Positions 9,291 through 12,361 of a stretch of 34,094 bases of DNA are shown piece by piece (position 1 is the stretch's first letter; each line of letters opens with the position of its first letter). The DNA comes from Sulfurimonas sp. (GTDB lineage Bacteria; Campylobacterota; Campylobacteria; Campylobacterales; Sulfurimonadaceae): the NCBI GenBank assembly GCA_027013295.1, contig JALUXP010000116.1, positions 1-34,094 on the forward strand. The letters are read 5' to 3'. Both the position numbers and the translations under genes were made by a program. The notes under the pieces are model-generated. The model was not told the origin of the DNA. It saw only the letters and a program-made list of their open reading frames with translations, and did not search any database.

Positions 9291-10289
9291 TTGCAATTTA
9301 CAAATAAAGAATTAATACAAAAGATAGATGCATACAAAAAAAAGTTAAGTGTAACTGTGGTTGCACACTTTTATCAAAGAGATGAAGTTTTTGAGATGGG
9401 TGATATTACGGGAGATTCGCTTGAACTTGCCATGAAGACAAAGGCTGATAAAGCAGAGTTTGTTGTGTTCTGTGGTGTAGGGTTTATGGGTCAAAGTGTA
9501 AAGGTTCTTTCTCCAAACAAACGGGTCGTAATGCCAAAACTTGCATGCTGTGCTATGGCCTCTATGATAGACTCTCTGCAGTTTAATGACTCTCTCAAAA
9601 TTTTAAACGCTGCAGGGATAGCTAATGAAGATATCTTACCCATTACATATATAAATTCTGATGTTGGTGTCAAGGCGAGGGTAGGGGAGATGGGCGGAGT
9701 TGTATGCACAAGTTCCAATGCTAAAAAAATCATTACGATAGCTTTAGAAGAGGGTAAGAAAATTCTTTTCGTTCCAGACAGATGTTTAGGTCAGAACATA
9801 GCAAATCAGATGGGACTTAAATCTTGTATTATTGGTGATGGTAGTGATCTCAAACAAAGCGATATTATCTGTTTTGATGGTTTTTGTTCAGTGCATCAGC
9901 TTTTTTGCGTAGATGATATAGAGTTTTATCGTAAAAAATTCCCAGGCATTCTCATAGCAACACACCCAGAGTGTGATCCTGCCATCTGTGATGCTTCGGA
10001 TTTTGTTGGTTCAACTTCTCAGCTTATCAAGTATATTACAGAACTTCCAGAAGATCAAAAAGTAGCAGTTGGTACAGAATTTAATATGGTAAACCGTCTT
10101 CGCCCTAAAAATACCTATATTCTTAGTTCAACAAAGCCAGAATGTCCAACTATGAATGAGACAACTTTAAATGATCTTTATTTAGCTTTAAAATCTATTG
10201 ATGAGGGTGAACCACTCAACGAAATTCATATAGATAAAAATACTCAAAAATGGGCTAAAGTAGCCCTAGAAAGGATGTTAGCATTATGA
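9291..10289 (+). CDS. nadA: Quinolinate synthase
   Basis: Condenses iminoaspartate with dihydroxyacetone phosphate to quinolinate in de novo NAD synthesis, using an oxygen-sensitive [4Fe-4S] cluster. The 332 residues fit the shorter NadA type. The three likely cluster cysteines are C87 (PKLACCAMA), C199 (DGFCSVH) and C285 (KPECPTMN). HFYQRDEV near residue 26 and VGTEFNMVNRL near 260 are typical substrate-site segments. The start is TTG with AAGGA upstream; no better ATG lies before the conserved region. The last four bases overlap nadC (ATGA), so the two are translationally coupled. Confidence 0.95.
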   Translation: MQFTNKELIQKIDAYKKKLSVTVVAHFYQRDEVFEMGDITGDSLELAMKTKADKAEFVVFCGVGFMGQSVKVLSPNKRVVMPKLACCAMASMIDSLQFNDSLKILNAAGIANEDILPITYINSDVGVKARVGEMGGVVCTSSNAKKIITIALEEGKKILFVPDRCLGQNIANQMGLKSCIIGDGSDLKQSDIICFDGFCSVHQLFCVDDIEFYRKKFPGILIATHPECDPAICDASDFVGSTSQLIKYITELPEDQKVAVGTEFNMVNRLRPKNTYILSSTKPECPTMNETTLNDLYLALKSIDEGEPLNEIHIDKNTQKWAKVALERMLAL

Positions 10290-11101
10290 TAAAAGAATTT
10301 GTAAAAAGTACCTTAGCCGAGGATGTCGGTCGTGGAGATTTATATGCATTGGTTGAGGAGGCTGTAGAAGTAAAAGCAGATATTATTGCGAGGTGTGATG
10401 GTATCCTTGCTGGGCAGATTTATGCAGATGCTCTTGGAGACTTAGAAGGTTTTGAAATAGTATGGGGGAAAAAAGATGGTGAGCATTTTTCTCAAGGGGA
10501 TATCTTGGCAATCATCCATACTGATTCACATACTATCTTAAAAAATGAAAGAACCTTGCTCAATATGATCTTACATGCAAGTTCTATAGCTACCCTAACA
10601 AATAGCTATGCATCCCTCATAAAGCCTTATGGTATCAAACTCCTAGATACAAGAAAGACAAGGCCACAACTTCGTTTATTTGAAAAGTATGCAAGTAGAG
10701 TTGGTGGTGCTCTAAACCATAGAATGGGACTTGATGATTGCCTTATGATAAAAGATACCCATCTTAAAACTATTGAAAACTTAAATGAGTATGTAAAAAG
10801 AGCAAGAACAAAAATCCCTTTTACAACAAATATAGAAGTCGAAGCTGAGAGTTTAAAGATCGCGATACTCGCTTTTGAAGCAGGAGTAGATATCGTAATG
10901 TGTGATAACATGTCGCCTGATGAGGTAGAAGAAGTGGTAGCGTATCGTAATGAAAATTTTGCACATATTACTCTTGAAGCAAGTGGTAATATCTCCTTAG
11001 AGACTATAGAATCTTATGCAAAAACAGGGATAGACGCTATCAGTAGTGGTTCGATAATACACCAAGCTAACTGGATAGATATCTCAATGAAAATAAAATA
11101 A
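10286..11101 (+). CDS. nadC: Nicotinate-nucleotide pyrophosphorylase (carboxylating)
   Basis: Converts quinolinate and PRPP to nicotinate mononucleotide, the step after NadA. The 271 residues match the family. Recognisable segments are LAEDVGRGD at the N-terminus, KNERTLLNMILHASSIAT, LLDTRKTRPQLR (PRPP and quinolinate binding), HRMGLDDCLMIKDTH and the C-terminal GNISLETIESYAKTGIDAIS barrel motif. It overlaps nadA by four bases. After its stop the flhB leader with the duplicated 72-bp unit begins; the first mini-ORF there lies in the same frame just past the nadC stop. Confidence 0.95.
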   Translation: MIKEFVKSTLAEDVGRGDLYALVEEAVEVKADIIARCDGILAGQIYADALGDLEGFEIVWGKKDGEHFSQGDILAIIHTDSHTILKNERTLLNMILHASSIATLTNSYASLIKPYGIKLLDTRKTRPQLRLFEKYASRVGGALNHRMGLDDCLMIKDTHLKTIENLNEYVKRARTKIPFTTNIEVEAESLKIAILAFEAGVDIVMCDNMSPDEVEEVVAYRNENFAHITLEASGNISLETIESYAKTGIDAISSGSIIHQANWIDISMKIK

Positions 11102-11106
11102 ATTTT

Positions 11107-11178
11107 TATGGCACTAAAGAAAAATCTAAGTATAGATTTTTGTGAATTCTTCTAGGAGATATAAATGGCAGATGATGC
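11107..11178 (+). repeat. 72-bp direct repeat, copy 1
   Basis: Identical over all 72 bases to copy 2 at 11245, at a distance of 138 bases. Each copy holds a 15-codon reading frame (MALKKNLSIDFCEFF, stop TAG), a 9-bp inverted repeat, the ribosome site TAGGAG and the first codons of a downstream frame beginning MADDA. In copy 1 this downstream frame is the 42-codon mini-ORF. Similarity continues imperfectly for about 15 more bases. Confidence 0.97.
11120..11141. promoter_or_regulatory. AT-rich perfect inverted repeat in repeat copy 1
   Basis: Arms AAAAATCTA and TAGATTTTT surround the loop AGTA, giving a 9-bp perfect stem. It could be an RNA hairpin (attenuator or weak terminator) or a DNA operator. 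The sequence does not decide between them. Confidence 0.6.
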
Positions 11179-11293
11179 CCAAATAACAGAAGATATTATT
11201 TTTCCAACAAAAAAGGAACTAGTCCCTTTTTCTACGCTAGCCGCTATGGCACTAAAGAAAAATCTAAGTATAGATTTTTGTGAATTCTTCTAG
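11165..11293 (+). CDS. 42-codon mini-ORF in the flhB leader, possible leader peptide or decayed flhB 5' duplicate
   Basis: The frame starts MADDAQITED with the same ribosome site (TAGGAG) as flhB, whose protein starts MADDAEKTEE. It looks like a diverged copy of the flhB beginning that ends in the repeated 15 residues MALKKNLSIDFCEFF. Its TAG stop (11291-11293) forms the first bases of the flhB ribosome site. A ribosome finishing here would be placed to start flhB. A terminator-like hairpin lies inside the frame (11210-11231). No protein family is recognised. It may be a leader peptide, a non-functional by-product of duplication, or untranslated. Confidence 0.3.
   Translation: MADDAQITEDIIFPTKKELVPFSTLAAMALKKNLSIDFCEFF
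11210..11231 (+). terminator. Terminator-like hairpin inside the flhB leader
   Basis: Arms AAAAAGG and CCTTTTT enclose eight bases; two further pairs are possible inside after an A-C mismatch. The T-run is part of the 3' arm, as in many compact bidirectional terminators. It could end nadA-nadC transcripts or attenuate flhB. The stem has only two strong pairs, so strength is uncertain. Confidence 0.4.
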
Positions 11294-11316
11294 GAGATAT
11301 AAATGGCAGATGATGC
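11245..11316 (+). repeat. 72-bp direct repeat, copy 2
   Basis: Second copy of the unit at 11107, identical across 72 bases. Here it encodes the last 15 residues of the 42-codon frame, then the flhB ribosome site and the first flhB codons. Confidence 0.97.
11258..11279. promoter_or_regulatory. AT-rich perfect inverted repeat in repeat copy 2
   Basis: Same 9-bp palindromic arms and AGTA loop as at 11120. This copy lies 24 bases before the flhB start codon, where a hairpin or a bound repressor could influence flhB expression. Confidence 0.6.
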
Positions 11317-12361
11317 AGAAAAAACAGAAGAACCCACCTCCAAAAAGATAGAGGATGCCCGTAAGGAAGGGAATGTTCCAAAATCCCAAGATGCTTCTGG
11401 CGTTGTAACCCTCTTTGTGGCGATTTTGGCACTTTTGCTTCTTTTCCCTTTTATGTCTTCGCATATGATTTTTTTATTTAAATATTATTTTAGTATCTTA
11501 GGTGATGGTATAGATAAGGAGATGCTCTTTGGTTTGACTTTTGTAACTATGCGGGAATTCCTTCTCATCGTATTACCCCTTGCTCTTTCTGTAGCTATAG
11601 CAGGTGTAGTAGCAGCTATAGCACAATTTGGTTTTTTGTTTACTGTTGATGCTATAGCACCAAAGTTCAGTAAGCTAAACCCTATAAAGGGGATGAAAAA
11701 CTTATTTAGCCTGAAAAAAATGGTTGAGGGTGTTAAGGTGACTTTCAAAAGCTTCACTACGCTTGGTGTTGGTTTTTTGTTTTTTTTCTATTTTATTATG
11801 GAACTTCCGACCGTTGCACTTTTTGGTCTAGGTGATCAGCTTGATTGGTTACAGGAGAAAGTTTTAACTATCGCTTTAGTGATGCTCTTCATCATTTTTG
11901 TTTTTGCTATTATTGATGTGATTATCGTGAGAAAACAGTATTTTGATGGTTTAAAAATGTCTAAACAAGAGATAAAAGATGAGATGAAAAATATGGAAGG
12001 GGATCCTCTCATCAAAGGTAAGATCCGACAAATCCAAATGGAAGCTTCAAGAAAAAGGATGATGGCAGATGTCCCAGATGCAGATGTTGTCATAACAAAC
12101 CCTACCCACTATGCAGTAGCACTAAAATATGAGGAAGCTAAAGGAGAAGCCCCTATAGTAATCGCAAAAGGTAAAGACAATATCGCACAACAAATCAAAA
12201 AAATTGCTCGAGAAAATAGTGTTCAAATCGTACAAAATCCACCCCTAGCACGAAGTCTTTATGCCGAAGTTGATATTGACAAAGCGATACCTGACTCTCT
12301 TTTCAAAGCTGTCGCCGAGGTTTTAGCCTATGTTTATCAAACAAACAAACAAAAAAGCTAG
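11303..12361 (+). CDS. flhB: Flagellar type III export apparatus protein FlhB
   Basis: Inner-membrane component of the flagellar export gate that switches export from hook to filament substrates. The 352 residues match the family. The N-terminus has the conserved EEPTSKKIEDARKEGNVPKS segment. Four hydrophobic segments follow (about 32-62, 85-115, 150-175, 185-208). The cytoplasmic domain holds the self-cleavage motif NPTH (266-269) in VVITNPTHYAVAL. All expected elements are present. The ATG at 11303 has a good TAGGAG site, and its first codons lie inside the second 72-bp repeat. It is separated from the other flagellar genes of the window by about 14 kb. Confidence 0.97.
   Translation: MADDAEKTEEPTSKKIEDARKEGNVPKSQDASGVVTLFVAILALLLLFPFMSSHMIFLFKYYFSILGDGIDKEMLFGLTFVTMREFLLIVLPLALSVAIAGVVAAIAQFGFLFTVDAIAPKFSKLNPIKGMKNLFSLKKMVEGVKVTFKSFTTLGVGFLFFFYFIMELPTVALFGLGDQLDWLQEKVLTIALVMLFIIFVFAIIDVIIVRKQYFDGLKMSKQEIKDEMKNMEGDPLIKGKIRQIQMEASRKRMMADVPDADVVITNPTHYAVALKYEEAKGEAPIVIAKGKDNIAQQIKKIARENSVQIVQNPPLARSLYAEVDIDKAIPDSLFKAVAEVLAYVYQTNKQKS

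Follow-up and report, generated by a model that had tools for sequence, protein, structure and literature searches.

A dispersed three-hairpin repeat in a tandem, translatable leader cassette upstream of flhB in Sulfurimonas

The region between nadC and flhB in the 34,094-nt stretch of Sulfurimonas sp. DNA analysed here (the window) is probably what is left of a tandem array, namely 1.5 units of an flhB-specific cassette, in which a REP-like repeat lying in the nadC-flhB junction stays readable and so preserves translational coupling, while recombination keeps the units identical. One unit would consist of a copy of the start of flhB, a dispersed, GTAG-tagged repeat of three hairpins and a Shine-Dalgarno (SD) tail (TTCTTCTAGGAGAT).

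The nadC-flhB junction

The two flanking genes, both on the forward strand, match NCBIfam equivalogs: nadC (10286-11101) TIGR00078 and flhB (11303-12361, ATG at 11303) TIGR00328. A first-pass annotation, made from the letters of the window, had reported two identical 72-bp units between them, 138 apart, and this is exact: 11107-11178 equals 11245-11316, with 138 nt from start to start, and the extended match around this identity is 97% over 87 nt. The pair constitutes the only direct repeats of at least 30 nt in the 34-kb window. Unit 1 (11107-11178, forward) combines the 3' portion of an incomplete element copy with an SD sequence and a copy of the flhB start; unit 2 (11245-11316, forward) extends into flhB.

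Read in the forward direction, the nadC stop codon is followed by 6 nt, a 15-codon frame, a TAG within TAGGAG, a 42-codon frame, a second TAG within TAGGAG, and flhB. The first frame, mini-ORF MALKKNLSIDFCEFF (11108-11155), runs from the ATG at 11108-11110 to the TAG at 11153-11155, which lies in SD 1 (TAGGAG, 11153-11158); the same single mini-ORF frame is also found in the closest relative (G084, locus L217). The next ATG, at 11165, opens the flhB-start copy (11165-11193), which covers 28-29 nt from the ATG and is identical or nearly identical to the genome's own flhB in most cassette-bearing relatives. It also opens the 42-codon leader frame (11165-11293), whose TAG (11291-11293), 12 nt upstream of the flhB ATG, overlaps SD 2 (TAGGAG, 11291-11296), the putative ribosome site of flhB. 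This frame had been said to resemble the start of FlhB, which is correct for its first ~10 codons, derived from flhB, and incorrect for the remainder.

A dispersed repeat with three hairpins

The spacer between the two units matches other sites in its own genome, one of them between tRNA genes, and 38 of the 60 genus genomes searched also contain matches. Some 200 candidate copies share one plan, namely hairpin P1, linker CTACGCTA, hairpin P2, linker ACTAAAGC and hairpin P3, which together make up a constant unit of ~70-84 nt. P1 has 8 bp, with a variable stem and a loop of the AACNNGTC or GTAA type, and P2 has 3 bp and a GCTNN loop. The full copy in the window (11201-11285, forward; model R1, 66 bits, E 2e-16) has P1 at 11209-11232, where a stem of 11209-11216 and 11225-11232 closes the loop AACTAGTC, and after it CTAC, which is the GTAG tag on the opposite strand; P2 at 11240-11250 (GCC-GCTAT-GGC), which covaries among the flhB copies (AGC/GCT, ATC/GAT); and P3 at 11258-11279, with a stem of 9 bp and the loop AGTA (all three forward). 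What had been taken for decayed FlhB in the spacer is actually hairpin 1 and the linker of this repeat, and the unit, described earlier as a mini-ORF duplicate, is instead a cassette based on it.

Covariation of the stems is strong. Stem cells are paired in 94% of cases, compared to 33-48% when slid, and 111 cells show double changes vs. 31 in shuffles; covariation among the flhB copies alone (25 vs. 9) indicates that the structure is retained there too. An exact GTAG precedes P1 on the opposite strand in 115 of 189 copies (61%), and GAAG or GCAG replaces it in 30 more. Using a covariance model, we found 21 copies in the genome of the window (E < 0.01) and the repeat in 47 of the 200 Campylobacterales genomes tested, belonging to 17 of 70 genera, with at least 22 copies in several of them. 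Named records carrying it include Sulfurimonas, Sulfuricurvum, Sulfurospirillum and other Campylobacterales. No curated family in Rfam 15 matched the repeat, and the open literature, subscription papers being outside our coverage, yielded no description of such repeats or of an flhB leader in Campylobacterota.

The copies are mainly intergenic, occur in either orientation near unrelated genes and often start where the preceding gene ends, at its stop codon; relatives have no copy at several intergenic sites that are occupied in the genome of the window. Target-site duplication was rejected as a general property, because direct repeats longer than 11 nt flank the flhB copies alone, and none beyond chance was found at the other single copies tested; one possible flanking pair of 13-15 nt (C10/C11) lies at a contig break. 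Transposition of the RAYT/REP kind was likewise discarded: Y1 genes occur in 24 of 60 genomes of the genus, yet none of 30 such loci carries a copy within 1.5 kb, and a search of the window's own genome gave no Y1 transposase match. Nor does the repeat appear to be an autonomous element, as the inverted pair in L098 encloses dnaA and dnaN only. The two copies in question (L098:2011, reverse strand, and L098:4696, forward strand) lie on either side of dnaA-dnaN, close to where the replication origin is likely to be.

Several other arrangements of the repeat were seen. In the window's own genome it occurs three times in tandem with a period of 90 (G000:C108:1856-2119; L328, L329 and L331), and the same copy is present at two contig breaks (G000:C10:8491-8574 and C11:23-106; L326 and L327), which are probably the edges of a tandem array that the assembler did not cross. 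About 30 copies in reverse orientation carry an extension, AAATGAAGGGTTTCCTTCATTTTATGAAATAAAATTAAGGA, upstream of unrelated genes (L021, L028, L033, L039, L041, L119, L157 and others), including dnaK, glmS, trxB and a flgD-like gene as judged by the first residues. The extension holds a mini-ORF, MKGFLHFMK and a stop, directly before the SD, and has two possible, mutually exclusive hairpins, one of which covers the SD. In L240 (genome G046, upstream of flhB), L223 and L050 the element is a variant that has an additional hairpin, GGAGAATGCCATTGGTTAGCATTCC, inserted between ACT and AAAG, and the repeat core is present on three IMG/VR contigs labelled viral (L183, L184 and L185), which represent candidate viruses.

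The flhB cassette across the genus

FlhB was identified in 124 of 135 genus genomes. Among 120 distinct Sulfurimonas-group loci classified by the region upstream of flhB, 81 show no trace of the repeat, 9 have an SD tail only, and the other 30 carry one full element or more. Near relatives are without the cassette, and the closest keeps a single tail (L217). Where present, the cassette has the order flhB-start copy, hairpin element, SD, flhB; at empty sites, the distance from the nadC stop to the flhB ATG is mostly 8-30 nt. The flhB-start copy (~28 nt) has a mean identity of 95% to the flhB of its own genome vs. 84% to the flhB of other cassette genomes, and therefore arises locally or is homogenised.

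The number of units varies from a remnant only (closest relative) through 1 and 1.5 (window) to 2.5 (G113), and in the window, as in some other genomes, an additional incomplete unit lies to the left. This difference in copy number between relatives bears out the earlier proposal that recent duplication lies behind the identity of the units. In G113 the 2.5 units of 140 bp are 100% identical, and their 46-codon frames end with TAATG on the next start. In the closest relative, whose FlhB is 95% identical, the TAG of the single tail is mutated and the next in-frame stop is a TAA just before the ATG, and in L240 the leader at flhB is 36 nt longer, with the extra hairpin in frame.

Presence and absence of the cassette change frequently. 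The presence label requires 27 changes on a rough tree built from 153 columns of nadC-tail and flhB DNA (25.6 when shuffled), where gain and loss by deletion between repeats look alike, and near neighbours at 97-99% identity are discordant (L011/L280 and L321/L022). Since close relatives exist without it, the flhB cassette is dispensable.

Leader frames and their stops

The first-pass annotation had also described short frames that each end on the TAGGAG ribosome site of the next; these are seen in the window, and the frames stay open across species. Of 29 leaders, 22 have, in the frame set by the flhB-start copy, a first stop that overlaps the flhB ATG or is at most 13 nt upstream of it, vs. 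0 of 29 in each other frame. The leaders are related and so do not amount to 29 independent cases, and part of the openness in this test comes with the codons of the flhB-start copy. With the flhB-derived codons removed, the counts for the three frames are 23 of 29, 0 and 1. The mark of a coupled leader, a stop codon placed on or close to the SD or the start codon of the main gene, is thus found across species, but coupling is not universal among the leaders because the stop lies 25-120 nt upstream of flhB in 7 of the 29.

In the window and two relatives, L005 and L007, a -1 shift before P1 is offset by a +1 shift in the P3 loop, which restores the same TAG. Change at the first, second and third codon positions is 0.219, 0.210 and 0.179 in the element codons and 0.098, 0.029 and 0.267 in flhB; unlike flhB, the element codons have no third-position excess (p 0.78). 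Open frames and stop positions are therefore retained and the peptide is not, so that what seems to be kept is the translation of the leader rather than its product.

Possible origin and function

According to the cassette-array reading, each leader frame would hand ribosomes on from nadC, so that flhB would still be translationally coupled after the insertion, and the leader peptide would be a by-product. The identity of the units would result from recombination or slippage between repeats, and the same process would add and remove units. From the order of stops and ribosome sites we infer that the leader couples nadC to flhB, and it is possible that it controls flhB as well.

Active control of flhB by the leader, as proposed in the first-pass annotation, appears rather unlikely to us; the level of flhB translation would then follow leader translation or a signal by way of the hairpins and SD pairing. 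Such control would agree with the structure retained at the flhB copies, with the stop codon at the SD and with the predicted fold of the window, where the regions of SD 1 and SD 2 are mutually complementary and fully paired; but this fold is predicted for one sequence, the same repeat stands beside unrelated genes in both orientations, and 81 of the 120 flhB loci, near relatives among them, have no trace of it. The scattered presence and absence, the remnants at 9 loci and the divergence of the spacer from flhB might be expected of a decaying duplicated repeat without any effect, an explanation that we regard as improbable in view of the compensating frameshifts and of frames that stay open as far as the ribosome site and stop there (22 of 29 leaders vs. 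0 of 29).

The conserved 42-codon length in many genomes could hint at a functional small protein. This is very hard to reconcile with the lack of third-position excess (p 0.78), with the window, L005 and L007 reading most of the leader in another frame, and with the failure of the 42-residue frame to match anything in an NCBIfam search; a conserved micropeptide in particular was rejected for its lack of a codon signature. An assembly artefact is scarcely credible, for although the genome is a draft of 134 contigs, the region lies on one contig between flanks that are unique, and cassettes are also found in the single-contig genomes G011, G054, G121 and G134.

The array may be, though we consider this doubtful, a contingency locus. 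Unit number (0, 0.5, 1, 1.5 and 2.5 between species) would shift by recombination between the identical repeats, and each unit, being a coupled cistron that has hairpins and an SD complementary to itself, would step the amount of FlhB, leading to flagellar output that differs among cells of one population. The junction illustrates in detail how a hairpin repeat of the dispersed kind can come to lie where an operon gene starts and leave the gene unbroken, by means of a start copy and translatability. The analysis further draws attention to a structured repeat across Campylobacterales outside the Rfam families, and to a fast-changing tandem array before a flagellar export gene, the effect of which on motility is open to testing.

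Comparison with known systems

GTAG REPs are short stem-loops with an unpaired GTAG tag and covarying stems, intergenic, often located after stop codons or near the 3' ends of ORFs and found in tandem clusters, and they have been reported in all proteobacterial divisions, epsilon included (Di Nocera 2013, PMC3733652). P1, with 8 bp, conforms to their palindrome of 6-9 bp with unpaired GTAG at one end. Here, however, the hairpin with the GTAG tag belongs to a constant unit that also includes P2, the ACTAAAGC linker and P3 and that, at ~70-84 nt, exceeds the 20-40 bp of GTAG REPs, and a RAYT (Y1) transposase gene flanked by the repeat was not found at any of the 30 Y1 loci in this genus.

Rickettsia palindromic elements are palindromic repeats with an open frame that are tolerated by staying in frame (reviewed in PMC2229807), and the flhB copies are similar in being palindromic, open and tolerated at a gene. 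In contrast to those elements, which lie inside the protein, no insertion is read through inside FlhB; the host gene is whole and the repeat gives rise to separate leader frames upstream. With translationally coupled, or bicistronic, leaders the junction shares a short frame that terminates on the SD or on the start of the main gene. It differs from them in its make-up, which is a dispersed repeat joined to a copy of the start of flhB itself, and in the variable number of tandem units.
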